Shown here: one piece after another, positions 1 through 37,100 of the stretch
How positions within the stretch are numbered: the first letter of the stretch is position 1
Layout: every line of letters starts with the position of its first letter
From: Liolophura sinensis
Taxonomy: Eukaryota > Mollusca > Polyplacophora > Chitonida > Chitonidae
DNA: 64,000 nt
Direction: 5' to 3'
Assembly (NCBI RefSeq): GCF_032854445.1
Contig: NC_088307.1
Span: 20,534,017-20,598,016, forward strand
Position numbers and translations under genes: made by a program
The notes under the pieces: generated by a model
Seen by the model: the letters and a program-made list of their open reading frames with translations, nothing else
Databases searched by the model: none
Told to the model about the DNA's origin: nothing

Positions 1-19
1 CGACGGCGGGATTTGGCAG
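1..19 (+). CDS. Copy A exon 1, last 19 bases
   Basis: Encodes DGGIWQ and ends in CAG|GTAAAC, phase 0. It matches the end of exon 1 in copies B (16955) and C (34109). Confidence 0.85.
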
Positions 20-6000: not shown

Positions 6001-9000
6001 TACAATGCAAGTGCACTTTCATGATGTCAGTTCTTACAAGGTCAGTTATAAATTCCAACGTAAGTATACACTGTCAAGGATTAGGTTGTAAACACCTACT
6101 GCTCTGTATGTGAAGCACCTTGAATACACAACACGGCAAATTATTATCAGTACGAACTGCATTATGAGCAAGTTTTCTGTATAAATTGCAAGTAAACTGC
6201 GTAAAAGTGGGGGGAAATGGAAAAATGTCCACAAGCAGATGAATAAAAGACAGAAAACAAGACCACTGACCAGAGTGTAACACTTGGCAAATGTTGCCAA
6301 GATGGAGTTTTCTTCCAATTGTTCAGGTATATACTAAATATAACATGGGGGCCTCATTAGCCTAACAGACTACGGCTGGAGTGTAATCGCACAGGAGCCT
6401 CTTACCAATGCGATGGGTTTCCCTCCGGCTCTGCACACTTTCTTTCCACCATAATGCTGGCCTCTGTGGCATAAGTAAAATATTCTTGAGTATGCCGTAA
6501 AATATCAATGAAATAAATAAATAAATAAATAATATAAATAAATAAAGTAGCAACTTATACGCCGTTCTGAACAATGGGAAAATTCGGTAAAAACATGTAA
6601 TGATGTGAATTTAAAACACACGACCATCCGCAGGTTGCTGCCAGACCTTCCCACTTACGGCCGGAGAGGAAGTCAGCATGAGCTGGACTTGACCTCAAAG
6701 GGACCGCATTGGGGAGAAGCTCCTGTGTCATTACGCTAACCAACTGAGCCATGGAGGTCCTCGAGTTTGTTCGACGTCACTGGCCTAGAATTACTCAAAA
6801 CACTGTGCTGTCAGTGAACAGTTAACATTTGATAACATGAAAACTGTATTGATAAATTTTCATCATCTGTGACGAAATGGTAGATGAAATGTGAGGTAAA
6901 ACTTCTTGTACTATATAGCATATTTACATAAACATTAGTGCCTCTAAAACAGATATTTTGTCCGCTCTCCTTCTTGTCATCACTCCGTGTTGTAACTGAA
7001 GTGTGTTTTTTACAGTGTAATAGTCATTTTCTGCTTCCATGAAATGTGTGATTTGGTTTTATCTATAAAATCCAATTTCCCCATATCACATTCTCGTTTT
7101 ATGTCCGGATTAATCACATTAAAATTTTTTATAAGCATTGTCTTTGGATTACTCAATTTTAACACCAATTTCAGACAAGGGTCAACTGCAGCTCTGCCAT
7201 CGTGTACGGCGCCTACAATAACCCTAATCCAGGTTTGGCTTACTACGAGATCAAGTCCGTGGCGACCCTCGACAAGCCCTCCGTGATCTACCTTCACAAC
7301 GACGGAAGAACACTGTATATCACTATAGAAGGCCATTCGAACCCCCTTAAAGTTAACAGTTCCAATATCTGCAAATCAATATCGAAAGTTATGCCAATAG
7401 ACGAAATCCATGTTAACAGAAGTAAGTTACATAATTAACACTTTTTTACTCATAAATATAATTATATATTATTTCATTGATCTGGCAGTAGTGCTTAACA
7501 TGGATGTAGAAACCCGAGAATATACGTGAAACCTACCGTCTTGAATTTTGGAACACGACTGACAAACTTGCTTGCTTAAAGACGCATATGATAAGATAAG
7601 ACTGTTCAACTTTATTTTCTAAAACTCGCTTTGAAATCTGAGCTTCCATTGTCACACGACCGTTCAAATCCAGTTTTCCAGTGTCACGCAAATGTTGGAC
7701 TGCAAGCTTAAAGTGTTTCACGACCGTTCAAATACAGTTTTCCAGTCTAACGCAAACGTTGAATCACGGCTTCCAGTTTTAGGCATGGTGATATGCAAGC
7801 TCCAAATGTTACACAAACGTTGAAATATGTGCTTATAGTGTTAAGCACTCGTTGAAATTTGGGTTTCCAGTGATACGTAATCATTGAAAATTCGGGTTTG
7901 CAGTATTACGCATGCGTACACGTTGAATTTAGGGCTCATGAAACGTTAAACGTGAGGAGTTTACTTAGCTTGTTTTAGTGTAGGAGTGACACTAAAGCAA
8001 AAGCCCCAGAATACACAATAAATGTTTCCTGCCTAACTTACGCAACAAACACATTTAAAACAATTAATTTGGAATTAAGAATCTGATGTTCGAATCAAGG
8101 ATAGGTCGGATCGACTGTGGCTGTATATCCGAGAGTAGGCTATGTCAGGTATAAAAAAAATGCCATATTAAAAGTGAAACATTCGCCTTTAAAATGTGCA
8201 AAACGCCATTCAGTCATTGAGAAAATATGTAAGTAATATGACGGGAAGTGCTAAGCTGTACAGTTTTTATGTTTAGTTCCCAAGTGTGACCTTTCCACCG
8301 CAGTGAAAACCTTTCTACTGTTTTTCGAAGTTTATAATTGAATTTATCAAATTTGTGTAAGATGTTTTTGTTTCTGCGTGACTTTATTTTGCTTATGCTT
8401 CAAATTCTGAAGTATATTATAATAAGATTCAAGAGAAAGTCCTCAGAATAATTTTAAATGAGTAGAAAATGTTAAAAATTGCGAATGGTACCACCATAAA
8501 AGAGCAAACCTAGTGCAGCAACGACAGTGTGATATTTCTAACTTGGCAGATTGATAACACGTAAAAATACGCTCTCTTGTCAATTTACCTCAGATAGGGT
8601 TATATTATTATTTCTAACTATTCGTGTAAATTCTTACATAGTACCGCCTCCTTCCTCCATGGTGATCAAATTCTGCTATTTTCAAAAATCCTCTTACTCA
8701 AGCACCTCTCGTTTGTTTTACAGAGCCTGTGGTAGTTTGCAACGACAACGGGGTAGAAAGGGAATGTACTCCTGCTGATCTAATCGATTTCAAGGAAGGA
8801 CTGTGTACAGGTAAGCGCTGTTTTATCACGCCTGGTAATTGTATACCAATCTTATCATTTTCGGTATCAAATCAGAAGTTTTTCATACTGCTCCTTCCAT
8901 CCAGCGTTCATATTCATCTCTCCATAAATCTTTTGGAATTTGGGACACTTATATTCTTCCCCTCATGAATATTTTGTCACATCCAACTTTATTATATCTC

Positions 9001-11376
9001 TCCTCAGCTGCATTCCGTGTCAAATCCGCCAATCATGCAGAGTTCCTAATGTCACATCTTACTGTCAAGTATTGCTGTTCGTCGTTATTGTGTCAAATCC
9101 ATCCATGCACTTCTCTAGAGCAGTATGATATATCTATCCAAAACTTTTAAGCAGTACCATGTGTCAAATCCCTCATTTTAATATCACCCCTCACCAGTAT
9201 CATGTGTCAAATATGTTCATATATCGCTTCTCAAGAGCACCATGTGTCAAATCTCTCACTCATATATCACGTCACACAAATACCATATACCGCATTCTTC
9301 ATTCACATTATCACCTCACACAACTATCATGTGTCGAATTCTTCATTCACATTATCACGTCACACAACTATCATGTGTCGAATTCTTCATTCACATTATC
9401 ACGTCACACAACTATCATGTGTCAAATCTCTTACTCACATATCACGCCAGTACCCTATACCTAATTCTTCATTATTACATCACAAAAGTACTATGTATCG
9501 AATTCTTCATTCACACGTCAAACCATTACCATGTGTCGAATTCTTTATTCACATTATCACGCCACACCACTACCAGGTGCCGAATTCTTCATTCACGTTA
9601 TCGCGTCAGACCAGTACCACATGTCGAGTTCTTTATTCACATTGTCACGTCACACCACTACCACGTGCCGAATTCTTCATTCACATTATAACGTCACATC
9701 ACTATCACATGCCGAATTCTTCATTCACATTATCACGTCACGCCACTACCATGTGTCGAATTCTTCATTCACATTGTTACGTCACACCACTACCATGTGT
9801 CAAATTCTTCATCTATATTATCACTCCATACCATTGCCACGTACCGAATTCTTCACTCACATTATCACGTCACACCACTACCATGTGTCAAATTCTTCAT
9901 CTATATTATCACGTCATACCACTACCATGTGCCGAACTCTTCATTCACATTATCATGTCACATCAGTACTGTATATCGAATTCTTCATTTACATTATCAC
10001 GTCACACCACTACTAAGCGTCGAATTCTTCATTCATATTATCACTCCATACCATTGCCACGTACCGAATTCTTCACTCACATTATCACGTCACACCACTA
10101 CCATGTGTCAAATTCTTCATCTATATTATCACGTCATACCACTACCATGTGCCGAACTCTTCATTCACATTATCATGTCACATCAGTACTGTATATCGAA
10201 TTCTTCATTTACATTATCACGTCAGACCAGTATCATGTGTCGAATTCTTCATCTATATTATCACGTCTCACCACTACCATGTGCCGAACTTTTCATTCAC
10301 ATTATCACGTCACACCACTACCATGCGTCGAATTCTTCATTCACATTGTCACGTCACACCACTACCATGTCCCGAACTTTTCATTTACATTATCACGTCA
10401 CAGCACTACCATGTCCCGAACTTTTCATTTACATTATCACGTCACACCACTACCATGTGTCGAATTCTACATTCACATTATCACGTCACACCTCTACCAT
10501 GTGCCGAACTCTTCATACACATTATCACGTCACATCAGTACTGTATATCGAATTCTTCATTCACATTATCACGTCACATCAGTACCATGAGTCGAATTCT
10601 TCACTCACATTATCACGTCACTTCTTCTTGTTGCAGGATGGATAATTGTTAAGTGCGACGTTAAGTGCGACGTTAAACCCTAAGCACTCACTCACTCACT
10701 CCTACACAGGAAATTAACCTGTTAGATTCATCATGTTCTCTTATTGTTTGTAGTGTCTTGGGAATTCCCAAACCCTTGTACGAGAGAGCACCTTCTTGAC
10801 CGCCAGCTGAAGTTCCCACATCCCCACCATCTCGATAAGTACCTGATGTGTGACTTCGCCGGTAACGTTTACATCGTCCAGTGTCCCAAGGGTCAGGTGT
10901 ACAGCCACGTGACACAGACGTGTGGACTTGGATACGGGACCCCCGGGAGCATCAACGGTACAAGAATCCCCTTGGGATCCGAACTGACCAACCCCTGCAC
11001 AGTGGAAGCCATACTGGCAGGGCACATGCTCTTTGCCGACGTGTACGACAACACAAAGTTCATCATCTGCGACGTCTGGGGAAACGCTTGGCTTAGCGAT
11101 TGCTCGCGCGGCTTCATCTGGGACCCCAGCAACATGAGTTGTGTGGTGGAGAGCTCAATCGAACATGTCCAAGGTCCAGGGCCCCTAGAACCCAACGTGC
11201 CCAACCCTTGTACCAAAGAGCATATCGCTGCCAGATTATTCTTCTTTCATTATCCCTACGCCAAGGACCGGTACATTCAGTGTGACGTTTGGGGCGATGC
11301 GTATGTCATGTTGTGTTTCGCTGGAGGTCACTGGAATGACCTTGCTAATTCTTGCACTGCAGGAAACATGGGATGA
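1..11376 (+). CDS. Copy A: secreted lysozyme-like / VWA / chitin-binding protein gene (5' partial)
   Basis: Exons read 1-19, 1941-2232, 3339-3908, 5792-5901, 7175-7421, 8724-8810 and 10754-11376; every junction is GT..AG and the joined frame is open to TGA at 11374-11376, giving 648 visible residues. The window starts inside exon 1, so signal peptide and catalytic-like Glu are off the edge. Domain order follows copies B and C: end of the lysozyme-like domain, VWA domain, linker, three CBM14-like modules. The VWA metal site is complete (DSSGS, a GGGT threonine, TDG). Exon 4 is nine codons shorter than in B and C. Divergence from B falls from about 23% of residues in exon 2 to about 5% in exon 7. 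No frameshift or stop was seen, so it looks functional. By family knowledge (Pif, BMSP) such proteins act outside the cell on chitin or mineral; the exact role here is not known. Confidence 0.85.
221..478 (+). mobile_element. SINE-A in copy A intron 1
   Basis: tRNA-like head with an A-box-like TGGCTCAGTTGG and a B-box-like GTGAGTTCAAGTCC, then a body ending in the conserved GTACGGCGTAAA.CACC tail and (AAAT)n. It occupies the same place as the elements at 17140 and 34303, so it predates duplication of the gene. Confidence 0.75.
1255..1721. repeat. Long palindrome (foldback element), copy A intron 1
   Basis: Left and right halves are imperfect reverse complements: ACTGGCCTAGC at 1255 pairs with GCTAGGCCAGT ending 1720, and the pairing continues inward through GAAGGTCCAGG, ATTTAGAATAGATTTATTAT and GCTCCT.GGCGA to a loop of about 50 bases. 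Looks like a MITE or foldback element. Its arms recur, rearranged, in copies B and C. Confidence 0.7.
1712..1844 (-). mobile_element. 5'-truncated SINE-A with target-site duplication, copy A intron 1
   Basis: A reverse-strand SINE-A tail (1724-1832) is flanked by the 12-base direct repeat TAGGCCAGTTTA (1712-1723 and 1833-1844). It landed in the right arm of the palindrome. The site is empty in B and C, so this insertion postdates the split of A. Confidence 0.75.
1941..2232 (+). CDS. Copy A exon 2: second half of the lysozyme-like domain
   Basis: The acceptor CTGAACAG precedes VDNDKF; the donor is AGA|GTAAGT, leaving one base of a split Ser codon. 97 codons, 22 residues different from copy B, the most diverged exon. 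Conserved blocks include NLHIDW, LRKPLYS, AARLYIEV and IPREISMQAQ. Confidence 0.85.
2375..2762 (+). repeat. Degenerate ~30-bp minisatellite, copy A intron 2
   Basis: About 13 imperfect units built on GGCATAAATACGTCATGTGG with a G-rich remainder. On the other strand each good unit carries a TGACGT core. Counterparts at 20660 and 36707. Confidence 0.8.
3339..3908 (+). CDS. Copy A exon 3: von Willebrand factor A domain
   Basis: 570 bases after acceptor TAACACAG, ending AAAA|GTAGGT. It reads AVFILDSSGSV, MGGGTDT and ILVTDGQS, which supply the D-x-S-x-S, Thr and Asp ligands of a metal-ion-dependent adhesion site. About 25 of 189 residues differ from copy B. The whole VWA domain lies in one exon. 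Confidence 0.9.
4761..5415 (+). mobile_element. Composite SINE-B / tRNA-like / SINE-B insertion
   Basis: A SINE-B lacking its 3' end (4761 to about 4978), a tRNA-like stretch (about 4981-5057) and a full SINE-B (about 5072-5415) lie between perfect 12-base direct repeats CTCTTCATATGA at 4749-4760 and 5416-5427. The single pair of direct repeats says all three parts inserted together. Both SINE-B heads contain CAGTTGGTAGAGCGTCC, and the last one ends in the GTCATATGACTGAAAAATTG and TTAAACCCCAAGCACTTACT type of tail. Confidence 0.75.
4981..5057 (+). tRNA. tRNA-like sequence inside the composite SINE (probably not a working tRNA)
   Basis: Has a good D-arm (TAGCTCAGTGGATAGAGC), a T-loop (TTCGAGT) and an encoded terminal CCA. 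The acceptor and anticodon stems pair poorly by hand folding and no clear anticodon loop with U33 was found. Best read as a tRNA-derived module of the retroposon. Confidence 0.35.
5792..5901 (+). CDS. Copy A exon 4: short glycosylated linker
   Basis: 110 bases from acceptor CCTTGCCCAG to GTG|GTGAGT. It encodes a CPPSC motif and two N-glycosylation sequons (NHT, NGS). Copies B and C have 137 bases and four sequons here. Confidence 0.8.
6346..6548 (+). mobile_element. SINE-A, internally deleted, copy A intron 4
   Basis: Starts GGGGGCCTCATTAG, keeps the CATAATGCTGGCCTCTG tail block and ends in (AAAT)n. Orthologous elements at 24043 (B) and 40098 (C). Confidence 0.65.
6600..6768 (-). mobile_element. 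SINE-A head, reverse strand, copy A intron 4
   Basis: The reverse complement carries the tRNA-like head (ACCAACTGAGCCATGGAGG on the + strand) and the first half of the body. Orthologous to 24316-24562 and 40372-40628, which keep their tails. Confidence 0.65.
7175..7421 (+). CDS. Copy A exon 5: linker domain of unknown fold
   Basis: 247 bases from acceptor AATTTCAG to AGAA|GTAAGT. It encodes VNCSSAIVYGAYNNPNPG and alternating hydrophobic stretches that suggest a beta-rich fold. 13 of 82 residues differ from copy B. I do not recognise the domain. Confidence 0.85.
7422..8723 (+). other. Copy A intron 5 with a degenerate ~40-bp repeat (about 7640-7930)
   Basis: Variants of CGTTCAAATCCAGTTTTCCAGTGTTACGCAAACGTTG recur about seven times, too diverged for an exact count. 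The rest is AT-rich intron with no gene seen. Equivalent stretches lie at 25445-25720 and 41508-41785. Confidence 0.5.
8724..8810 (+). CDS. Copy A exon 6: small cysteine-bearing exon
   Basis: 87 bases from acceptor TGTTTTACAG to ACAG|GTAAGC. It encodes ERECTPADLIDFKEGLCT with three cysteines in all. Phase 2 in and phase 1 out fit exons 5 and 7. Confidence 0.85.
9175..10620 (+). repeat. 44-bp minisatellite filling copy A intron 6
   Basis: About 33 units of 44 bases containing TTCATTCACATTATCACGTC followed by an ACACCACTACCATGTGTCGAA-like half. There are no stop codons in any + frame of the unit and 44 is not a multiple of 3, so long ORFs of up to 462 codons appear in all three frames. They begin and end with the array and are not genes. 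Confidence 0.9.
10631..10705 (+). mobile_element. SINE-B tail fragment before copy A exon 7
   Basis: GATAATTGTTAAGTGCGACG, with GTTAAGTGCGAC duplicated, then AAACCCTAAGCACTCACTCA. The same fragment sits at 28178-28246 and 44155-44223, so it predates the duplications. Confidence 0.55.
10754..11376 (+). CDS. Copy A exon 7: three CBM14-like chitin-binding modules and stop
   Basis: Follows acceptor TTGTTTGTAG and runs 623 bases to TGA. Three modules each start NPCT and share the spacing C-X23-C-X10-C-X12-C. The aromatic and CP-x-G positions of peritrophin/CBM14 modules are kept in modules 1 and 2, while module 2 reads DCSRG here and module 3 CFAGG. 11 of 206 residues differ from copy B, nearly all in the first 130 residues of the exon. 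Confidence 0.9.
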
Positions 11377-16691: not shown

Positions 16692-16955
16692 ATGGGGACA
16701 AGACTTGCTGTCGGATTTGTCTGCAGTGTGTTTCTGGTTCTTATACACAATGGTTTAGTCTGGGGTCAAACCGACTTGACTATGACCGCAGAGTCGAAAG
16801 GCGCAGCTGTGGTCGACGCTGTCGTTGATCTTATCCACCACGCCTGCATCTTTGATGATGACAACTTTTTCTTGCGACGTCTGGCTTTTGTCGAGAGCAG
16901 AGACGGCAACAATGGCAACACCTACCGACACGGTTACGACGGCGGGATTTGGCAG
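16692..16955 (+). CDS. Copy B exon 1: signal peptide and first half of lysozyme-like domain
   Basis: ATG in ACCATGG context, 88 codons, donor CAG|GTAAAC. Signal peptide ends near VWG25. Carries Cys52, Glu68 and GGIWQ. Differs from copy C at residues 2, 26, 31 and 80. Confidence 0.88.
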
Positions 16956-19900
16956 GTAAACATATGCTAACCTCCATTACACTAAAAAATAATTATGTTA
17001 ATTTTATGTTTGAGTGATGTTAGACTCTATTCCGTTATTGTTAATAACAAAATACTGTCCAACATAATGTCCTGTTAGTCAAATATATTCTTATGTTAAG
17101 TTGATATAATATGTGTGGTGTATTCAATGGGGAAGGGGGGGATCTCCGTGGTTCAGTTGCTTAGCCCGCTTGCGCAGCGCAATGACCCAGAAGCCTCTAA
17201 CCAATGCTGTCACTGTGAGTTCAAGTCCAGCTCATGCTGGCTTCCTCTCTGGCTGTAAGTGGGACGGTCTGGCTGCAACCTGCACATGGTCATGGGTTTC
17301 CTTCGGGCTGTGCCCTGTTTCCTCCTACCATAATGCTGGCCAGCGTCGAATAAGTGAATTATTCTTGAGTACGGCATAAAACACCAATCAAATAAATAAA
17401 TAAACGTATTTAACAGAATAATCATGCTGTAATGATGAAGTACAATTTATCATCATTCAAACAACAGATTTTCTTTGATGCTATATGTGGGCTGGGCATG
17501 GCCCAGTGAGTAACGTGCAGGACTAAAAACAAAAAGCTTAAGACAGGTATATTGTAGATTTGTGAGTACCAGAACGTCATTAAAAAAACAAGCCAGTAAA
17601 CATTTGACACTTTTGATTAGGAGGTTGGTGGGGGGAGATTACCGAGGCGAAAAAGTTGCATTTAGACAATGGAAACTATCATAATTCGAAATAAATGCCG
17701 AGTTTTTATTTATTATTTTTTTGAACAAGGACCAGAATTAAGACATTTTAGTGCAATGTTAATCATTAAAATCCTGATTTCTTTCAACACAATTCACTTC
17801 AACTCGGGGTTTTCCGGACACGAAGCAATGCATTTATCAATGCTTAATATGTACAATATGTACGCAGCCATCCAGTTAATGTGCTAAAACTCTTTTTCTT
17901 CTTCCAATCACATAGGCCTATTCATCATAGCGCATGCACAGTTTACCACGCTTGCTTTAAAACATCACTGACAAATTTGCTACACGTGTTCTGAGGCGTA
18001 TGGTACCGCTGAAGTTCTAGCAGTCAATGTGACCAGCAGTGAATAAGGCAGCGAGTTAATTAAATTCGTCTTTGTGATGGACTAAGGTTGGAAACGCTGG
18101 TCGGCCTAAAACTCACCCTGTCTACGCTGAATGGACTCAAAAATAAATTATCCCACAGACGTTGACACACCACATATCCTTTACTGTAGCCCCTAAAGAC
18201 TCCAACTCCTTTCCCTATACTGGCCTAGCGTCGTTTGAGCCTCGACGCTTTCAGTGTTAATTTCGTACTCCACGAAGGTCCAGATCGATTGTCTTTGTTA
18301 TCGAACAAGTCCCGATAAGTAAAACACACCAAGCTAAAGACCTACTCCCCGCACCCACCGCACCGTCACGATACGTCCCTACTCGATTTAGAATAGATTT
18401 ATAATAACCATGGCTTCCACGGTATATGTTACCCGGCATCCGTTTCTGGGGAGATATAGAGAACAACGAAATGTATTTGGTGTGAAGATCACGTAAACAG
18501 CGCCATGTTTAATTGATGAACAAGGTCATTGCCTCATATTACAATATCAGCCAACATGGGCCTATACACTACGGTATAATCTCTTATGCCACATGACTTA
18601 CAAACAATGCAATGTCTCAGTAGTTCTTGCATGGTTATTGTTTTCTCCTACCAAACCTTTCCTATTTCAATAACAAGCAAAATGAACGTATTAACTCAAA
18701 AATGTGACAGTGCTGAGAACACAGGACAACAGTAGAATCTGCCTACACATATATGTAACATATCTTTCATTAAAACACCATAACATGAAATCAATTTATA
18801 CACACAACGAAGATTTGTTTTCTCGACTAACCCCGCCACTGTGTGTAAATCAGAACTCATACTTATGACTGTAACATTAGCCCCCAATACTGAATGTACA
18901 CTATTAATGTTTCGTACGTGCTGTATGTGTAACCCATATCTTAACCTACTGACTACTTCACTGTAACACAAAACATGTACACAATGACAATAGTTATCCT
19001 CATCATGTCTTGCACAATAATACAGATCTACGTGTACATTTACTGTCACTATCACAACATAAGCAGTTTCAATTTGCCTGAGCACATCTTGCAATCAAAT
19101 ACTCTATAGCGGTCACTTTGTATCATTGAAAACAGTTCAGGACATTTCTGAGATATGATTTAACCTCTTAGAATGTTGTAACGGTCTAAAGATAGCATTC
19201 TTCCAGTTCGCCTAAATAACCACTAAATTACAGCATCAATCCACAACAACACTCTCAAAGATACCCAGTGTGCTTTATCTTTACACAGCATTCCAATGTC
19301 TATCAACATATTTACTCAAACATGTGGGATTAAATCGCATGACAAACTTCAGACGGTCACGAAAAATAGGTCATCAATGAATCGGAAATTACTTCGACTC
19401 AGCCAGGCATATAAATTGGCGAAATAAGTAATTATGCTACCATTTATATCGCATTACACACGTTTAAGAACATGATTTTGAATTGTGAAAACACACAATT
19501 ACATTACATATTACCTGGGGAGATATAAAGAACAACGAAATGAATTTGGTGCGAAGATCATCACGCGAAACAGCGCCATTTTTAATCAGGGAACAAGGTC
19601 ATTGCGTCATATGAGAAGAGTTGTCGCCTCTAACTGTCTACTGTCAAAGTGCAATAAATGACCTACATAGCGTTATAGCTTGTCTAAAGCTATCAAAAAC
19701 TTTATGGTACCCCCTGTAAACATGCGCTGCTATATTCCATATATATACTCCTCGCGATTGTCGCCATCTTCCCAATGCTCCACTATGAAGCAGGACATGC
19801 GGGTAGCTGCTCAACATGGCGGCAGTCGACGAGGAGGGTATACCGTGGAAGCCTTCATGGCCGTAATAAATCTATTCTAATTCGAGTATGGAGGCGACAC

Positions 19901-22900
19901 TTGTTCGAAAACGAAGCCAATCGGCCTGGACCTTCGTCGGGGAAGAAAATTAACACTGTTAGTTTTAGCGTTGAGACTCCCATGACGTTAGGCCAGTTTA
20001 AGAAAAGGAGTTGGAGTCTTTCGGGGCTACCTTTACTGATGAAATCCAACACATGCAATCATCGCGTATTTTTACCATAAAAGACAAATTTCAGTCTCGT
20101 TTGTAAAGCTTAGGGTATAGGACATGACATGGTATGGTGTAAGCACGGGTGGTCCACTTACTTGACGCAATGACTTGTGGTATAGGACTACAAGGTACTG
20201 AAAGCCACTGTTTCTTGTTTGCTCTGAACAGGTGGACAACGACAAGTTCCGTCAGACACAGACGTCGTCTTACGCTAGTATATATTACTCCAAGATTCTG
20301 TCAAGTAACCTGCATATTGATTGGCCCAGCGTAACCTGGGCTGACCTCCGGAAACCTTTATACTCTGCCATTGCCGCTCGTCTCTACATAGAGGTCATAA
20401 ACCAAAGACAGCCTATTCCAAGGGAGATAAGTATGCAGGCTCAAATTTGGCATCAGGATTATCACAACTCTAATCCAGCTCCAACCTCCAACTTCACTGC
20501 CACTGCGGATCTTCTCACACAGAGTAAGTGCGACAGTTATCTCAGTAAATAAATAATGCCCGGGTGATATGCGCCAATAATCTTATTGCCGCCTGTGTAT
20601 TTTTTACTTACTGAATCAACTACATGTAACTTAATATTCCAAAGACTAAGTAGCCTGGACGCATAAATACATTATGTGGGTTGGGGGTGGTAAAAATGCG
20701 TGATGTGGGTTGGGGGCATAAATATGTCATGTTGGATAGGAATGGAATAAATACGTCAGGTAGTTTGGGAGTGGCATAAATACAGATATGACATGTGGGC
20801 TTAAGTGCATAAATACGGCATGTTGGTTGGGGGTGTAATAAATACTTCACATGGGGTGGGATGACATAAACATGTCATGAGGGGTGAGGTGGCATAAATA
20901 CGTCATGTGGGGTGGGTAGCATAAATACGCCATGTGTGTGCGGGGTGGCATAAATACATCATGTGGGGTGGGGTAACATAGTACGTCATGTGCATGGGCA
21001 TAAATACATTATGTGGCTTGGGGAGGGGGGGTTGAATACGCCATGTGGGGGGGGGTAGCATAAATACGTCATGTGGGGTGTGGGAGCATAAATTAATACA
21101 TCATGTTGGGTGGGTGGCATAAATTAATACATCATGTTGGGTGGGGGTACACTTGAGACAGAGGTTGTAGTAATTAGCATACAGTCCATTTAATTGTGGT
21201 TTTTCACATCAACAAACCTAAAGCATACTCCTTTCAACGCATGCGGAGTTCTCCACTTCCGCTTTACATCGTTGATATCACCAGCAAAATTTGAGCATAA
21301 TTCTGACGCCGGGGTCACTGAGGTCCCGGTGACATGCGGGACGTGATGTCAGAAAACTGAACTCCGTCTCAACATTTGTTTCTAATAATTATTTATACAC
21401 ATATTTAAGTATGCACAAAAAACATGATGCTAACCAACACTTGAAACGATTTTATTGCTGAATGCATATTCATTGAAGGATACAAATTTTGAGCCCTAAA
21501 CATAGACCTACGTACGTGGCACAGATCCCAAAGGTCAGGCTTGTTTTGTTGGTGGCAGTGATATAAAGCGAGCGCAGACAGCGGCGCATGTGGTGTTAGC
21601 AGTATTTGAGGCTAAACATGTATACAATGCATGTAAATGATGTTGACACATGTTCTGGTCTAACACAGGCTGCAGCGGAGATAAACCACTTGACGCCGTG
21701 TTTATTCTGGACTGTTCAGGAAGTGTCGGTGCCAGGGATTTTGAAAAAGCGAAGCAGTTCGTCATCAAATGGATACAAGCCTTTCACATCGGACCGGCCG
21801 CCACACAGTTAGCCGTCCTTTCATACAGTAGAGGAGTACACGTGGAATTCGATCTGAACACATATCATACCAGCTCCGAACTCATCAGTCATGTAAATCG
21901 CACTCAGTTTATGGGAGGAGGAACGAACACCGCAGCTGCCATCAGTGTCGCTGTAGACAGATCCCTTTCGACACAATTTGGCGCGCGTAATAATGTAGCG
22001 CGCGCTATAATTCTGGTAACAGACGGCCAGTCAAATGATCATGCGGCTACAGTACGCGAAGCTGCGCGCGCACGCAGTATGCAAATTACCTTGTTTGCCG
22101 TAGGCGTGGGAAGTGGTATTGACAAACGCGAACTGAATGATGTCGCCACAGACCCTGACTGCACCCATGTGTTCCTGGTTCAAGACTTCTCCAAGATCGA
22201 ATTCTTGAAGCAACAAATGCAAGAAGCAACGTGTAAAAGTAGGTATCGTGTTGACTGAAGATATTACGATATACAATTTTATTTATTTATTTTTTAAGAT
22301 AATGCTCAGCGGTCATGGGGTTGATTCCACAAAGCCGTTTCGGACTTCAGTTAAAATTTCAATTCTCTTTATGGTGCTTAGTTTTTGGTACTGAAAGTTT
22401 AAATTTGGGCACGTTTGTCTTAAGACACCATTTATGAGGTGGACAAAATATAAATTTCTAAAGCCTAAAAATAGCTTGTATTTCAAATTTTGACTTAAGT
22501 CGGAATTGACCTTGTGTAATAAGCCTCTGTTCCTTGCTCTAACGCCGAGCGCCAAGCGAGGCAACAACCAGTATCACTTTTGAAGTCTTTGGTATGACCT
22601 GACCCGGTTTTTTTTCCGTCATATGACGACGAGAAATCATAATATTAGATTGGAATTCCAGGTGTTAACTATTAGGCCGCCGAAGTGGTCTGGGTTGAAA
22701 TAAGAATAATGCAGCGCATCTTTTCTTTTTTTTTTTTTTTTTGGCAATTAAAGTGTGAAAGGGCGTTTTAAGTTGCGCACCCAAAGCAGCCTTTAGATAT
22801 TGCTCATTGAACAAGGTTGACGAGTCCTCCCGTCTGTTTCGTTTAACGCGTAGCGTATATTCAGCAGTCCGTAAAAATAGTCGTATTGGTCGTATTTAAT

Positions 22901-25900
22901 ACCAAAATTACCTTGCGGTAGTGACACATAACATCATGGCCAAGCGTTAATTGGACTTCTGTATTATTCTGTAAGAAAAATGCGGTAAGGGCATTTTCTC
23001 TAATCCATAAGCTTTGTTTCGACTCGAAGAACTCATTGCCGTCATTATTGTAAAAAAAAGCAATGACTACTAAAAAAAGTACTGGTACTTGTCGCTGCCA
23101 CACTTGTCGCTCAAGATTAAGATGTTAGAGCAAGGAAACAGGAGAGAGAAATCATGACTGGTGTGTTCGGCTTAATATTTCAGCACGGACACTCGCCGCT
23201 GAACAAAGAAGTCACAATATATGTACACACACTTAATGAGTCCTTCTCTTCATATATTCGCCACGGTACAGCTGAGATATTGACCATGTGGCGTTAAGCC
23301 ATAATCATTCATTCTTCATATGAAAATTGTTAAAACACAAGCATATAAACTAAACAGAGAGTCTGTATGATGCTAGAACGCACACACCCATACACGCATG
23401 CATATGCAGTTTCATGCGTGGTACCTCTTTTCCTTGCCCAGCTAAAATCCACGTCGCTGTAACGCCCGGCAAAAACCACACTAACGGTACTAACGAAGAA
23501 GTGAGATGTCCGCCAACATGTACTGTGGCGATCACAGAGGGAAACACCACCGGCAACGGCAGTGAGACAGCATTTGTGGTGAGTGAATATTAATACGAAA
23601 ACCGAAAATTTTTTCACCGATGTCACCGGACAAGAGCAAAGGCAGACCTGTTAGTTTTGGGCTTGTTATCAATGCTATATAATGCATGTCTGTCAGATAA
23701 GTACACTTTCATGATGTCAGTTCTTGCATGACCGGTTATAAATTCAAACGTAAGTACACCCTCTCAAGGATTAGGTTGTAGACACCCACTCCTTTGTGTG
23801 TAAAGCACCTTGAATACACAACACGGCACAAGAAATTATTATCAGTACGAACTGCATTAGGAGCAAGTATTCTGTGTAAGGTGCATGTTAAGAAAGCTGC
23901 GTAAAAAGTGAGCAAAATGGAAAAATGCACTCAAGCAGATGTATAAAAGACAGAAAACCAGACCAGTGGCCACAGTGTTAATATTTGGCAAATGTCGGTT
24001 GGAGTTTTTCTTCCAATTGTTCAGGTATATACTTAATATAACATGGGGGCCTCATTGGTCCAGCTCTTCCTGGCTTCCTCCTCGGTCGTACGTTGGAAGG
24101 TTTGCCTCCAGCCTGCTGATGGTCGTGGGTTACTCCGGGCTCTGCACACTTTCTTCTCACCATAATGTTGGCCTCTGTGCCATAAGTAAAATATTTCAAA
24201 GTACGGCGTAAAATACTAATGAAATAGATAAGTAAATAAATAAATAAAGTAGTAACTTATACGCCCATCTGAACAATGGCAGAATTTGGTAAAAATATAT
24301 AGTGATGTGAGTTTATTTTATTTATTTATTTATTTATTTATTTATTTGGCTGTTGTTTTACGCCGTACTCAGGAATATATGGTGGTAGGAAACCAGACAG
24401 AGTCCGGGCGAAACCCACGGCCATCCGTAGGTTGTTAGCAGACCTTCCCACTTACGGCCGGAGAGGAAGTCGGCATGATGTGGACTTGAACTCAAAGCGA
24501 CCTCACTGATGAGAGGCTCCGGTGTCATTACGCTGCCCTAGCGCGCTTACCAACTGACCCACGTCACTGGCCTAGAATTACTCATAATGTTGTGTGTTGT
24601 CAGTTGAGAGTTAACATGTGACAACATGAAAAGTGATAAAGTCTCAGCATCGGTGTCGATTTGGTAGATGAAATGTGAGATATCTAAGACATCTAGTTAT
24701 ATATTGCATATTTACATCAACACTAGTGCCTCTAAAATAGATATTTAGTCTGTTCTCCTCCTTGTCAGTGTCATCACTCTGTGTTTTATATATATCAAGT
24801 CATTGTCTGCCTCCATGGAATGTGTGATATGGTATTATTTATAAAAACCAATTTCCCCACCCCCATTCACTAGTTTTATGCCCGGACTGATCACATTTAT
24901 AAAAAAAATTTATAATCATTGTCTTTGGACACTAGATTACTCAATTTTAACACCAATTTCAGACATGGGTCAACTGCAGCTCTGCCATCGTGTACGGCGC
25001 CTACAATAACCCTAATCCAGGTGTGGCTTACTACGAGATCAAGTCCGTGGCGACCCTCGACAAGCCCTCGGTGATCTACCTTGACAATGACGGAAGAACA
25101 CTGTATATCACTATAGAAGGCCATTCGTACAGCTTTGGAGTTAACAATTCCAAAATCTGCGAGTCAGTATCGAAAGTTATGCCAAGAGACGAAATCCATG
25201 TTGACAGAAGTAAGTTACATAATTATAACTTTTTACTCATAAATATAATTGTATATTATTTCATTGATCTGGCAATAGTGCTTAACGTCAACCTCAAATA
25301 TAATTGAGTTCTCTTGTAGCTGTAGAAACCCGAGAATATACGTGAAACCTACGGTCTTGAGTTTTGGAACATGACTGATAAATTTGCTTGCGTAAAGACG
25401 CATATGATAAGAGTGTTTATTTTTACTTTCTAAAACTCGCTTTGAAATCCGAGCTTCCATTGTCACACGACCGTTCAAATCCCGCTTTCTAGTGTCACGT
25501 AAACGTTGGACTGCGAGCTTCCAGTGTTACACGACCGTTTAAATCCACTTTTCCAGAGTAACGCAAACGTTGAATCCCGGGCTTCCAGTTTTACATAGAT
25601 GGTGATATGCGGGCTCCATGTGTTTAACAAACGCTGAAATTTGCGCTTCCAGTCTTACGCACTCGTTGAAATTTCGGGTTTTCAGTATTACGCATACGCA
25701 CACGTTGAATTTAGGGCTTAAGTAAACGTTAAACGTGGGGAATTAGTCTACTTAGCTTGTTTTAGTGTAGGAGTGACACTACAGCAAAAGCCCCATAATA
25801 CCCAGTAAATGTTTCTTGCCTAACCTAGGCAACAAACATACATTTAAAAACAATTAACTGGGAATTATAAATCTGAAGTTCGAATCAAGGATAGGTCGGA

Positions 25901-28900
25901 TCGACTGTGGCTGTATATCCGAATGTAGACTATGTCAAGTATAAGAAATGCCATGTTAAAAGTGAAACATTCGCCTTTACAATGCGCAAAACGCCATTCA
26001 GTCATTGAGAAAATATGTAAGTAATATGACGGGAAGTGCTAAGCTGTACAGTTTTTATGTTTAGTTCCCAAGTGTTACCTATCCACCACGTTGAAAATCT
26101 GTCCACCGCGCGAGAAAACCCTTCTACTGTTTTTCTAAGGTTAACAGTTGAATTTATCAAATTTGTGTAAAATGTTTTTGTTTCTGCGTAACTTTCCTTT
26201 CGCATCTGCTTCAAATTCTGACATTCATAATGGTAAGATTCAAGAGAAAGCCCCCTGAATAATTGTAAATGAGCAGAAAATGTTTTTAAAAAGCTAATGG
26301 CAAAGGCCACCATAATAGAGAGTAAAACCAGAGCAGTAACGACAGTGTGATATGTTTGAATTGGCAGATTGATAATGTGTAAAAATACGCTCTGTTGTTA
26401 ATTTACCACAGACAGGGTGGTATTATTGTTTCTAACTATTCGTGTAAATTTTTAAACAGTAGTAAATTACACGCCCTCCATGGTGATCAAATTCCGCTCT
26501 TTTCAAAGATCCTCTTACTCAAGCAACTCTCGTTTGTTTTACAGAGCCTGAGGTAGTTTGCATCGACAAAGGGATCGAAAGGGAATGTACTCCTGCTGAT
26601 CTAATCGATTTCAAGTTAGGACTGTGTACAGGTAAACGCTGTTTTATCACGCCTGGTAATTGTGTACCAATCTTATCATTTTCGGTATCAAATCAGAATT
26701 TTTTCATACTGCTCCTTCCATCCAGCGTTCATATTCTTTCCATAAATCTTTTGGAATTTGGGAAATTAATATTCTTCCCCTCATCAGTATTTTGTCACAT
26801 CCAACTTTATTATATCTCTCCTCAGCTGCATTCCGTGTCAAATCCGCCAATCATGGACAGTTCCTAATGTCACATCTTACTGTCACGTATTGCTCTTCGT
26901 CGTTATTGTGTCAAATCCATTCATGCACTTCTCTAGAGCAGTATGCTATATCTATCAAAAACTTGTAATCTGTATAATGTGTCAAGTTTATTCATATATC
27001 ACTTCTCAAGAGCACCATGTGTCAAATATCTCACTCATATATCACGTCACACCAATACCATATACCGCATTCTTCATTCACATTATCACGTCACACAACT
27101 ACCATTTGTCGAATTCTTCATTCACATTATCACGTCACACAACTATCATGTGTCAAATCTCTTAATCACATATCACACCAGTACCCTATACCTAATTCTT
27201 CATTATTACATCACATCGGTACTATGTATCGAATTCTTCATTCACATTATCACGTCACACAACTATCATGTGTCGAATTCTTCATTCACATTATCACGTC
27301 ACACAACTATCATGTGTCAAATCTCTTACTCACATATCACACCAGTACCCTATACCTAATTCTTCATTATTACATCACATAGGTACTATGTATCGAATTC
27401 TTCATTCACATTATCACGTCACACTATTACCATGTATTGAATTCTTCATTCACATTGTCACGTCACAACACTACCATGTGTCGAATTCTTTATTCACATT
27501 ATCACGTCACACCACTACCACGTGCCGAATTCTTCATTCACATTATCGCGTCAGACCAGTACCACGTGTCGAATTCTTTATTCACATTATCACGTCACAC
27601 CACTACCACGTGCCGAATTCTTCATTCACATTATCACGTCACACCACTAAAATGTGTCGATTTCTTCATTCACATTGTCACGTTACGCCACTACCATGTG
27701 TCAAATTCTTCATCTATATTATCACGTCATGCCATTGCCACGTACCGAATTCTTCATTCACATTATCGCGTCACACCTTACCATGTGTCAAACTCTTCAT
27801 CTATATTATCACGTCATACCACTACCATGTGCCGAACTCTTCATTCACATTATCACGTCACATCAGTACTGTATATCGAATCCTTCATTTACATTATCAC
27901 GTCACACCACTACCATGCGTCGAATTCTTCATTCACATTATCACGTCACACCACTACCATGTGCCGAAGTTTTCATTCACATTATCACGTGACACCACTA
28001 CCATGTGTCGAATTCTTCATTCACATTGTCACGTCACACCACTACCATGTGCCAAATTCTTCATTCACATTATCACGTCACATCAGTACTGTATATCGAA
28101 TTCTTCATTCACATTATCACGTCACACCAGTACCATGAGTCGAATGCTTCACTCACATTATCACGTCACTTCTTCTTGTTGCAGGATGGATAATTGTTAA
28201 GTGCGACGTTAAGTGCGACGTTAAACCCTAAGCACTCACTCACTCCTACACAGGAAATTAACCTGTTAGATTCATCATGTTCTCTTATTGTTTGTAGTGT
28301 CTTGGGAATTCCCAAACCCTTGTACGAGAGAGCACCTTCTTGACCGCCAGCTGAAGTTCCCACATCCCCACCATCTCGACAGGTATCTCATGTGTGACTT
28401 CGCCGGTAACGTTTACATCGTCCAGTGTCCCGAGGGTCAGGTGTACAACCACGTGACACAGACGTGTGGGCTTGGACACGGGACCCCCGGGAGCATCAAC
28501 GGTACAAGAATCCCCTTGGGATCAGACCTGACCAACCCCTGCACAGTGGAAGCCATACTGGCAGGGCACATGCTCTTTGCCGACGTGTACGACAACACGA
28601 AATTCATCACCTGCGACGTCTGGGGAAACGCTTGGCTTAGCGATTGCCCGCGCGGCTTTATCTGGGACCCCAGGGACATGCGTTGTGTGGTGGAGAGCTC
28701 AATCGAACATGTCCAAGGTCCAGGGCCCTTAGAACCCAACGTGCCCAACCCTTGTACCAAAGAGCATATCGCTGCCAGATTATTCTTCTTTCATTATCCC
28801 TACGCCAAGGACCGGTACATTCAGTGTGACGTTTGGGGCGATGCGTATGTCATGTTGTGTTTCGCTGGAGGTCACTGGAATGACCTTGCTAATTCTTGCA

Positions 28901-28920
28901 CTTCAGGAAACATGGGATGA
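16692..28920 (+). CDS. Copy B: secreted lysozyme-like / VWA / triple chitin-binding protein
   Basis: Seven exons: 16692-16955, 20232-20523, 21669-22238, 23442-23578, 24963-25209, 26545-26631, 28298-28920; all GT..AG, total 2220 bases, 739 residues. Residues 1-25 are a signal peptide. Residues ~40-185 look like a lysozyme/lytic transglycosylase-type domain: AFVES (Glu68) followed by GYDGGIWQV, compare the E-S ... G-L-M-Q pattern of that superfamily. VWA domain 193-375 with ligands Asp200, Ser202, Ser204, Thr271, Asp304. Linker 376-533 with clustered N-glycosylation sequons and no recognised fold. CBM14-like modules at 541-589, 614-662 and 685-733. No transmembrane segment or GPI signal follows, so it is likely secreted to extracellular matrix. 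VWA plus chitin-binding modules occur in mollusc shell matrix proteins (Pif, BMSP); a digestive or immune role is possible given the lysozyme-like head. Confidence 0.88.
17140..17405 (+). mobile_element. SINE-A in copy B intron 1
   Basis: Same position and orientation as the element at 221-478; tRNA-like head, GTGAGTTCAAGTCC B box and (AAAT)n tail. Confidence 0.75.
18170..18440. repeat. Left arm of the foldback element, copy B intron 1
   Basis: Reverse complement of parts of 19770-20040 (for example GACTCCAACTCCTTT and GAAGGTCCAG blocks). The arms that lie together in copy A are about 1.3 kb apart here. Confidence 0.65.
18446..18540 (+). repeat. Direct repeat, left member, copy B intron 1
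   Basis: Starts CTGGGGAGATATAGAGAACA and is similar over about 95 bases to 19515-19612. The two flank a block of about 974 bases that is absent from copy A. Confidence 0.6.
18541..19514. other. Block inserted between foldback arms, copy B intron 1
   Basis: AT-rich sequence between two direct repeats. A 132-codon - strand ORF (18696-19094) has no recognisable domain. Copy C keeps the right-hand part from about 18,700 onward, joined directly to sequence matching 17,570. Confidence 0.45.
19515..19612 (+). repeat. Direct repeat, right member, copy B intron 1
   Basis: Starts CTGGGGAGATATAAAGAACA; partner of 18446-18540. Confidence 0.6.
19740..20060. repeat. Loop and right arm of the foldback element, copy B intron 1
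   Basis: Matches 1480-1721 of copy A and extends further, since copy A was interrupted by a SINE. The same arm is at 35790-36100 in copy C, which has lost the left arm. Confidence 0.65.
20232..20523 (+). CDS. Copy B exon 2: second half of lysozyme-like domain
   Basis: 292 bases, phase 0 in and 1 out. The predicted residues are identical to copy C and 22 of 97 differ from copy A. Confidence 0.87.
20660..21155 (+). repeat. Degenerate ~30-bp minisatellite, copy B intron 2
   Basis: Units around GGCATAAATACGTCATGTGG with G-rich linkers; about 16 units, longer than in copy A. Confidence 0.8.
21669..22238 (+). CDS. Copy B exon 3: VWA domain
   Basis: 570 bases; VFILDCSGSV gives the MIDAS with a cysteine in the first variable position where copy A has serine. 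Predicted protein identical to copy C. Confidence 0.9.
23247..23321 (+). mobile_element. SINE-C tail fragment at the site used by SINE-B in copy A
   Basis: 23256-23312 ends GTGGCGTTAAGCCATAATCA plus (TTCA)n and lies between TCTTCATAT direct repeats (23247-23255, 23313-23321). The copy A composite SINE interrupts the same target. Confidence 0.5.
23442..23578 (+). CDS. Copy B exon 4: glycosylated linker
   Basis: 137 bases. Four N-glycosylation sequons within about 30 residues (NHT, NGT, NTT, NGS) and a CPPTC motif. DNA identical to copy C. Confidence 0.83.
24043..24248 (+). mobile_element. SINE-A, internally deleted, copy B intron 4
   Basis: GGGGGCCTCATTGGTCCAGC, then tail and (AAAT)n. Orthologue of 6346-6548. 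Confidence 0.65.
24316..24562 (-). mobile_element. SINE-A, full length, reverse strand, copy B intron 4
   Basis: (TTTA)n, GTTTTACGCCGTACTCAGGA tail, body and head (CTAGCGCGCTTACCAACTGA on the + strand). Confidence 0.75.
24963..25209 (+). CDS. Copy B exon 5: linker domain of unknown fold
   Basis: 247 bases, starts TWVNCSSAIVYGAY, ends in a split Lys codon. Same protein as copy C. Confidence 0.87.
26545..26631 (+). CDS. Copy B exon 6
   Basis: 87 bases, PEVVC ... ERECTPADLIDFKLGLCT, donor G|GTAAAC. Same protein as copy C; five residues differ from copy A. Confidence 0.85.
26990..28170 (+). repeat. 44-bp minisatellite filling copy B intron 6
   Basis: Same unit as 9175-10620, about 26 units. 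Intron 6 is 1666 bases here, against 1943 in A and 1579 in C. Confidence 0.9.
28178..28246 (+). mobile_element. SINE-B tail fragment before copy B exon 7
   Basis: Same duplicated GTTAAGTGCGAC and CACTCACTCACTCC tail as in copy A. Confidence 0.55.
28298..28920 (+). CDS. Copy B exon 7: three CBM14-like modules and stop
   Basis: Cysteines at 541/565/576/589, 614/638/649/662 and 685/709/720/733, the same spacing in each module. Two residues differ from copy C (Q552 to R and T686 to N). Confidence 0.9.
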
Positions 28921-33845: not shown

Positions 33846-34109
33846 ATGGCGACAAGACTTGCTGTCGGATTTGTCTGCAGTGTGTTTCTGGTTCTTATAC
33901 ACAATGGTTTAGTCTGGGGTGAAACCGACTTGACTACGACCGCAGAGTCGAAAGGCGCAGCTGTGGTCGACGCTGTCGTTGATCTTATCCACCACGCCTG
34001 CATCTTTGATGATGACAACTTTTTCTTGCGACGTCTGGCTTTTGTCGAGAGCAGAGACGGTAACAATGGCAACACCTACCGGCAGGGTTACGACGGCGGG
34101 ATTTGGCAG
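33846..34109 (+). CDS. Copy C exon 1: signal peptide and first half of lysozyme-like domain
   Basis: ATG in ACCATGG context, 88 codons. A2, E26, T31 and Q80 replace G, Q, M and H of copy B. Glu68 and GGIWQ kept. Confidence 0.88.
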
Positions 34110-37100
34110 GTAAACATATCCTAACCTCCATTACACTAAAAAATAATTGTGTTAATTTTATGTTTGAGTGATGTTAGACTCTATTCCGTTATTGTTAATA
34201 ACAAAATACTGTGTCATATCCAACATAATGTCCTGTTAGTCAAATATATTCTGATGTTAAGTTGATATAATATGTGCGCTGTATTCAATGAGGAGGGGGG
34301 GGATCTCCGTGGTTCAGTTGCTTAGCCCGCTTGCGCAACGCAATGACCCAGGAGCCTCTAACCAATGCTGTCACTGTGAGTTCAAGTCCAGCTCATGCTG
34401 GCTTCTTCTCTGGCTGTAAGTGGGACGGTCTTGCAGCAACCTGCGCATGGTTATGGGTTTCCTCCGGGCTGTGCCCTGTTTCCTCCTACCACAATGCTGG
34501 CCACCGTCGAATAAGTGAATTATTCTTAAGTACGGCATAAAACACCAATCAAATAAATAAATAAACGTATTTAACAGAATAATCATGCTGTAATGATGGA
34601 GTACAATTTATCATCATTGAAACAACAGATTTTCTTTGATGCTATATGTGGGCTGGGCATGGCCCAGTGAGTAACGTGCAGGACTAAAAACAAAAAGCTT
34701 AAGACAGGTATATTGTAGATTTGTGAGATTAAAAAAACAAAAATCCTGTGTGCTGAGAACACAGGATAACAGTAGAATCTGCCTACACATATATGTAACA
34801 TATCTTTCATTAAAACACCATAACATGAAATCAATTTATACACACAACGAAGATTTGTTTTCTCGACTAGCCCCGCCACTGTGTGTAAATCAGAACTCAT
34901 ACTTATGACTGTAACATTAGCCCCCAATACTGAATGTGCACTATTAATGTTTCGTACGTGCTGTATGTGTAACCCATATCTTAACCTACTGACTACTTCA
35001 CTGTAACACAAAACATGTACACAATGACAACAGTTATCCTCATCATGTCTTGCACAATACTACAGATCTACGTGTATATTTACTGTCACTATCACAACAT
35101 AAGCAGTTTCAATTTGCCTGAGCACATCTTGCAATCAAATACTCTATAGCGGTCACTTTGTATCATTGAAAACAGTTCAGGACATTTCTGAGATATGATT
35201 TATCCTCTTAGAATGTTGTAACGGTCTAAAGATACATTCTTCCAGTTCGTCTAAGTAACCACTAAATTACAGCATCAATCCACAACAACACTCTCAAAGA
35301 TACCCAGTGTGCTTTATCTTTACACAGCATTCCAATGTCTATCAACATATTTACTCAAACATTTGGGATTATATCGCAAGACAAACTTCAGACGGTCACG
35401 AAAATTAGGTCATCAATCACTCAGAAATTACTTCGACTCAGCAAGGCATATAAATTGGCAAAATAAGTAATTATGCTACCATTTATATCACGTTACACAA
35501 GTTTAAAGAACATGATTTTGAATTGTGAAAACACACAGTTACATTACATATTACCTGGGGAGATATAGAGAACAACGAAATGAATTTGATGCGAAGATCA
35601 TCACGCGAAACAGCGCCATTTTTAATCAGGGAACAAGGTCATTGCGTCATATGAGAAGAGTTGTCGCCTCTAACTGTCTACTGTCAAAGTGCAATAAATG
35701 ACCTACATAGCGTTATAGCTTGTCTAAAGCTATCAAAAACTTTATGGTACCCCCTGTAAACATGCGCTGCTATATTCCATATATATACTCCTCGCGATTG
35801 TCGCCATCTTCCCAATGCTCCACTATGAAGCAGGACATGCGTATAGCTGCTCAACATGGCGGCAGTCGACGAGGAGGGTATACGTACCGTGGAAGCCTTC
35901 ATGGCCGTAATAAATCTATTCTAAATCGAGTATGGAGGCGACACTTGTTCGAAAACGAAGCCAATCGGCCTGGACCTTCGTCGGGGAAGAAAATTAACAC
36001 TGTTAGTTTTAGCGTTGAGACTCCCATGACGTTAGGCCAGTTTAAGAAAAGGAGTTGGAGTCTTTCGGGGCTACCTTTACTGATGAAATCCAACACATGC
36101 AATCATCGCGTATTTTTACCATAAAAGACAAATTTCAGTCTCGTTTGTAAAGCTTAGGGTATAGGACATGACATGGTATGGTGTAAGCACGGGTGGTCTA
36201 CTTACTTGACGCAATGACTTGTGGTATAGGACTACAAGGTACTGAAAGCCACTGTTTCTTGTTTGCTCTGAACAGGTGGACAACGACAAGTTCCGTCAGA
36301 CACAGACGTCGTCTTACGCTAGTATATATTACTCCAAGATTCTGTCAAGTAACCTGCATATTGATTGGCCCAGCGTAACCTGGGCTGACCTTCGGAAACC
36401 TTTATACTCTGCCATTGCCGCTCGTCTCTACATAGAGGTCATAAACCAAAGACAGCCTATTCCAAGGGAGATAAGTATGCAGGCTCAAATTTGGCATCAG
36501 GATTATCACAACTCTAATCCAGCTCCGACCTCCAACTTCACTGCCACTGCGGATCTTCTCACACAGAGTAAGTGCGACAGTTATCTCAGTAAATAAATAA
36601 TGCCCGGGTGATATGCGCCAATAACCTTATTGCCGCCTGTGTATTTTTTACTTACTGAATCAACTACATGTAACTTAATATCCCAAAGACTAAGTAGCCT
36701 GGACGCATAAATACATATGTGGGTTGGGGGTGGTAAAAATGCGTGATGTGGGTTGGGGGCATAAATATGTCATGTTGGATAGGAATGGAATAAATACGTC
36801 AGGTAGTTTGGGAGTGGCATAAATACAGATATGACATGTGGGCTTAAGTGCATAAATACGGCATGTTGGTTGGGGGTGTAATAAATACTTCACATGGGGT
36901 GGGATGACATAAACATGTCATGAGGGGTGAGGTGGCATAAATACGTCATGTGGGGTGGGTAGCATAAATACGCCATGTGTGTGCGGGGTGGCATAAATAC
37001 ATCATGTGGGGTGGGGTAACATAGTACGTCATGTGCATGGGCATAAATACATGGCTTGGGGAGGGGGGGGTTGAATACGCCATGTGGGGGGGGGGGGGGT

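Follow-up and report, generated by a model that had tools for sequence, protein, structure and literature searches.

A 64,000-nt stretch of the Liolophura sinensis genome (NC_088307.1 of assembly GCF_032854445.1, positions 20,534,017-20,598,016, forward strand; hereafter the window) carries a gene, present three times in tandem, whose predicted product places a lysozyme-like domain ahead of a VWA domain and three CBM14 chitin-binding modules. With about even confidence, we hold that the product is secreted and tethered to chitin and that its N-terminal domain (residues 26-185) is a lysozyme-superfamily module of microbial origin. Judged by its sequence, this N-terminal domain is homologous to the phage proteins of the PHROGs family phrog_3108 and to a small set of bacterial proteins.

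The middle gene copy (B) consists of seven plus-strand exons across 16692-28920. All six introns are GT-AG and their phases are consistent, so that the single frame of exactly 739 aa proposed by an earlier reading of the letters alone (the sequence-only reading) could be rebuilt from spliced exons. Exon 1 (16692-16955) encodes a hydrophobic N-terminus, read by eye as a signal peptide of about 25 residues, and the start of the lysozyme-like domain; exon 2 (20232-20523) supplies the remainder (residues 89-185, with D90, R138, A158 and W161). The FVES...GYDGGIWQV segment singled out earlier is present, with FVES beginning at residue 66 and containing E68, and GGIWQVD beginning at residue 84 and containing Q88 and D90. 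The putative catalytic codons lie at 16893-16895 (E68) and 20235-20237 (D90), and the first intron interrupts the putative active-site motif (GGIWQ/VD).

Downstream of this domain, the architecture that had been read from the letters was borne out by Pfam searches at E up to 1, in which both of the families proposed for checking, PF00092 and PF01607, matched the 739-aa protein. Exon 3 (21669-22238) encodes the VWA domain (residues 194-366, about 21692-22210; E 1.2e-44), with the three motifs generally ascribed to its metal ion-dependent adhesion site (MIDAS), DCSGS, GGGTNT and LVTDG, at residues 200, 268 and 301. Exon 7 (28298-28920) encodes three CBM14 modules (about 28315-28470, 28534-28689 and 28747-28902) followed by the stop codon; PF01607 matched in three stretches, with E 1.6e-15 in the whole protein and E 1.3e-17 when exon 7 was searched alone. 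There are four cysteines per module (541/565/576/589, 614/638/649/662 and 685/709/720/733), and the protein stops six residues past the last of them. Between these domains, exon 4 (23442-23578) encodes a linker and exon 6 (26545-26631) a short cysteine-containing segment, both without a Pfam family match, and exon 5 (24963-25209) matched no Pfam family at E up to 1. At the same threshold, neither residues 26-185 nor the linker at 377-533 matched any Pfam family.

Self-comparison of the window revealed that the gene is repeated at intervals of ~16-17 kb within 1-44897, an array overlooked by the sequence-only reading. Copy A (1-11376, plus strand) enters the window with the last 19 bases of exon 1 (1-19), the rest of this exon lying outside, and continues with exons 2-7 at 1941-2232, 3339-3908, 5792-5901, 7175-7421, 8724-8810 and 10754-11376. 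Copy C (33846-44897, plus strand) comprises exons 1-7 at 33846-34109, 36276-36567, 37726-38295, 39497-39633, 41026-41272, 42609-42695 and 44275-44897, which are 97.7-100% identical to those of copy B. The open frame and splice sites are preserved in all three copies, six whole exons being covered in copy A. As all seven exons and their splice signals recur in copies B and C, and copy A has six plus the end of exon 1, the exon joins are unlikely to be due to chance; the gene model of copy B is inferred from this conservation, and a tandem array with conserved coding structure would argue for a working gene and correct joins. The same observations bear on the idea that two genes, one lysozyme-like and one VWA-CBM14, were wrongly joined. 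The introns reach ~3.3 kb and the joins were derived from genomic sequence alone, but the splice phases join exactly to a 739-aa frame in B and C, exons 2-7 of copy A form one frame, and exon order and GT-AG sites are kept in every copy, and we consider a false join very improbable.

Over 9.4 kb, copies B and C share 98.6% identity (nonsynonymous divergence, dN, 0.0035; synonymous divergence, dS, 0.0164), and this pair could be an allelic duplication in the assembly. Between A and B, dN is 0.067 and dS 0.130 (exons 2, 3, 5, 6 and 7). Unlike exons 2, 3 and 7, exons 5 and 6 have dN above dS (0.083 versus 0.057 and 0.099 versus 0.054, respectively, each from few changes), making relaxed or diversifying selection possible in the linker encoded by these two exons. 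Identity between A and B is near 97% in exon 7 and the 2.7 kb downstream versus 87-93% in exons 2, 3, 5 and 6, a difference that suggests gene conversion or unequal crossing over in the history of the array. The last intron of each copy also contains a minisatellite of 44-base units in 25 to 32 copies (9239-10621, 27014-28169 and 43078-44146).

The relatives of the N-terminal domain were found outside the standard family collections. Pfam and NCBIfam yielded no family at E up to 10, and a PDB sequence search no match at the same threshold; viral contigs searched with the window domain alone gave none either. In PHROGs, however, the domain matched phrog_3108, a family listed as of 'unknown function', at E 1.7e-8, residues 12-150 of the query corresponding to positions 7-146 of the 160-position profile. 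A tblastn search of 50,697 phage records returned one huge phage (E 2e-6), whose protein, used as query in turn, matched 182 plasmid records, Klebsiella accounting for 172, as well as 19 phage records, one of which was its own. In IMG/VR, profile scanning confirmed 173 relatives; 80 of these were retained. A scan of genome contigs with one alignment (A4) gave 149 candidates, none confirmed, and a scan of bacterial genomes with another (A7) confirmed three of 25 candidates, all proteins from metagenome-assembled genomes (MAGs; L107, L108 and L109). Among 95 homologous open reading frames (ORFs), one per fetched locus and in part duplicates, the best blastp match of the window domain is L029, at 39% identity and E 4e-24. 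A hidden Markov model (HMM) of 70 phage and bacterial rows, which had been aligned together with the window rows, scored the window domain at 84.1 bits versus at most 5.6 bits for 1000 shuffled sequences (819 reported). Similar sequences may also occur among other lophotrochozoan gene predictions.

How far this homology leads to a lysozyme can be judged from structure and from individual residues. An AlphaFold2 model of a phage homologue (predicted local distance difference test score 94.6) matches lysozyme-superfamily structures in VIA-align, and as modelled this family member thus resembles them; Foldseek against the PDB gave weak scores for the same model, and a PDB sequence search with the phage homologue returned three matches, the best of them an antibody chain (E 0.047). 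In goose lysozyme, the catalytic Glu is E73, and D97 is the Asp that follows the GLMQV stretch. The family HMM aligned with goose lysozyme (153l) at E 0.45, with E73 and D97 corresponding to E68 and D90 of the window protein. At E up to 10, the window domain matched neither Pfam SLT (PF01464) nor any other lysozyme profile; among 67 phage and plasmid relatives, SLT matched three (best E 0.0051) and DUF732 eight (best E 0.01). The earlier proposal of a lysozyme-type N-terminal domain stands in part, in that a lysozyme-type origin is supported.

Whether the domain would still cut is another matter. Eight alignment columns show no variation across all 70 phage and bacterial relatives, and the window keeps five of them (E68, Q88, R138, A158 and W161). 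The missing three, K162, N166 and G172, weigh against an unaltered lysozyme; their loss suggests changed specificity or reduced turnover, and the putative enzyme activity may be altered or lost. On the strength of these losses, a serious rival is that the lysozyme fold is catalytically dead and persists in a chitin-matrix protein for glycan binding or a purely structural role. Further points in its favour are the absence from copies A, B and C of the YNTxxGxGT stretch, which bacterial homologues retain as YNTxxGAGT, and the very long branch of the window sequences in the tree described below. Yet copies B and C retain E68, D90, Q88, R138 and W161, and copy A retains Q88, D90, R138 and W161, its E68 position falling outside the window. 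Without catalytic constraint, the loss of E68 and D90 would be expected too, and their retention speaks against a dead domain, which on balance we think unlikely.

The gene neighbourhoods of the phage homologues offer clues to the ancestral function of the module. In phrog_3108 proteins such as Gp54 of Klebsiella phage phiKO2 or AUZ95556 of Salmonella phage PMBT28, the homology to the window domain covers nearly the full length of the profile, and the invariant E, Q, R, A and W are shared; these proteins differ in being contiguous ORFs and in keeping the K, N and G lost from the window domain. In PMBT28, the homologue adjoins a holin (phrog_785, E 6.6e-27), and next in line is an Rz-like spanin ORF (phrog_89, E 1.1e-5, its best match being to a family of unknown function), and both here and in K21lambda1 the records annotate a neighbour of the homologue as holin. 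On a Shewanella plasmid, a holin-like ORF precedes the homologue (phrog_175, E 0.0018, again with a better match to an unknown family). In phiKO2, Gp53, Gp54, Gp55 and Gp56 are consecutive, the last two overlapping; Gp53, Gp55 and Gp56 match unknown PHROGs only, and a two-component spanin of this phage is listed in a spanin survey (PMC6139136).

Across 107 neighbouring ORFs, the holin families phrog_785, phrog_6384 and phrog_3427 match five, three and three, respectively, and an Rz-like family two, counted among the 25 commonest of 115 families; the commonest, phrog_1544 with eight members, has no known function. By size, 84 of the 95 homologues are ORFs of 153-258 aa, and the other 11 form part, mostly the C-terminal part, of ORFs of 708-1,093 aa, where they are perhaps virion lysozymes. 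Several loci speak against a uniform role in lysis: the record of Shewanella phage 1/44 annotates nearby genes as tail protein and tail assembly chaperone, a baseplate assembly gene lies upstream of the homologue on a Photobacterium plasmid, another plasmid has a PAAR gene near it, and the genes flanking the Vibrio phage homologues are mostly hypothetical. Taken as a whole, phrog_3108, represented at loci L003, L004, L005, L011 and L016-L095, looks like an unrecognised family of endolysins or virion lysozymes.

As several relatives belong to phage lysis cassettes, bacterial peptidoglycan would be the likeliest original target. This departs from the sequence-only reading, which had aimed the domain at a glycan such as chitin and pictured a molecule that may cleave or grip chitin while anchored by CBM14. 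Chitin cleavage by the putative enzyme domain is possible since a chitinase of glycoside hydrolase family 23 (GH23) exists, judging by the title of a 2013 paper by Arimori et al. that PMC4633669 cites, and GH23 chitinase structures also appear in the structure comparison. An enzyme remodelling chitin in shell or cuticle nevertheless seems unlikely: the sequence relatives, in phage lysis cassettes and in bacteria, point to peptidoglycan, and the N-terminal domain matched no chitinase family in Pfam or NCBIfam. As a chitin-tethered lysozyme-like protein, the product would be exported via its signal peptide and held on chitin by the CBM14 modules, with the VWA MIDAS linking it to itself or to partners and the lysozyme-like module presented to a glycan containing N-acetylglucosamine. 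E68 would then be the general acid and D90 the counterpart of goose D97, and the protein, leashed to chitin in an extracellular matrix, could work as a lysozyme that serves defence or conditions the surface.

As to where the module came from, the window copies and the three bacterial proteins form one group in a tree of 72 rows (ultrafast bootstrap 100, SH-like approximate likelihood ratio test 90) within an enclosing clade that includes six phage sequences (99/87), on a long window branch of 2.29. R63 and Q157 of the window are the same residues in all three bacterial rows, the prevailing residues being E (66/70 rows) and R (67/70 rows). Together, grouping and shared residues make bacteria, or their prophages, a likelier source than the phages sampled, and the breadth of phage and bacterial relatives suggests a transfer from microbe to animal. 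The bacterial homologues, from Deltaproteobacteria and Zetaproteobacteria MAG records, also begin with a hydrophobic stretch resembling, by eye, a signal peptide, but differ from the window domain in retaining the YNTxxGAGT stretch and in being ORFs of only 194-232 aa. Downstream of two of them lies a similar ORF of 158-161 aa (L107:2524-2997 and L108:1796-2278). Its N-terminus is hydrophobic and it matched nothing in Pfam; the product could partner or inhibit the lysozyme-like protein.

Among animal proteins, the closest likeness in architecture is to the molluscan shell proteins Pif and BMSP, which combine VWA, CBM14 and often a partial Laminin G domain (34 of 50; PMC11291548). The order of signal peptide (here by eye), VWA and CBM14 modules is shared, and the extra lysozyme-like domain ahead of VWA sets the window protein apart. 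Laminin G gave no Pfam match in the window protein at E up to 1, a search that did not include the partial-domain approach of PMC11291548. By its description there, the PifS1 subfamily has a long insert with low-complexity regions between signal peptide and VWA. The bivalve co-opted phage lysozymes, described as having undergone intron gain, duplication and fusion (PMC5303276), offer a parallel by description for a phage-type lysozyme in an animal genome with introns, duplication and gene fusion; their listed fusion partners are PGRP, MALRD2 and HSPG. The Lottia shell protein GEPRP_LOTGI (B3A0P5) is likewise comparable by description, as a molluscan shell matrix protein with a Lysozyme_like domain listed at about aa 240-415 (PMC4094399); it differs in being rich in Gly, Glu and Pro, and its listing mentions neither VWA nor CBM14. 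In a tubeworm tube, lysozyme is reported as abundant, which the authors read as defence or chitin digestion (PMC8476170). A term search of the main text of a paper on animal g-type lysozymes (PMC11576321) found neither 'VWA' nor 'von Willebrand', and the literature searched yielded no description of lysozyme-like, VWA and CBM14 domains in one protein.

The window holds a few further features. A SINE-like (short interspersed nuclear element) 3' tail, TTGAGTACGGCRTAAAACACCAATCAAATAAATAAA, occurs 12 times at up to three mismatches, including 17365-17400 and 61983-62018, and in none of 100 shuffles; such tails are known from mollusc SINEs. At 55100-55170 on the minus strand, an Rfam tRNA match (42.5 bits) that is absent from the ARAGORN output overlaps a dispersed repeat and is probably a tRNA-derived SINE head. 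An open frame at 58539-58823, also on the minus strand, resembles part of a quinone oxidoreductase by eye, an unconfirmed likeness for which Pfam, searched at E up to 1, gave no family.

A domain that Pfam and NCBIfam leave unrecognised can now be given a likely fold and named relatives, which connect a possible shell or cuticle matrix protein with phage and bacterial cell-wall lysis. Co-opted phage lysozymes in bivalves (PMC5303276) and VWA-CBM14 shell components (PMC11291548) were each known; were both held in one molecule, a single recombinant protein would suffice to test directly whether the matrices of biominerals and cuticles also act against bacteria. As a by-product, phrog_3108 can be proposed as a family of phage endolysins or virion lysozymes. 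Tentatively, and at rather less than even confidence, an endolysin-like domain of bacteria, or of their phages, may have entered a lophotrochozoan, gained the intron within its active-site motif, been fused to a Pif-like VWA-CBM14 protein and been amplified in tandem, giving a chitin-tethered lysozyme that patrols or remodels a chitinous matrix, such that a shell or cuticle protein would also be an immune enzyme.

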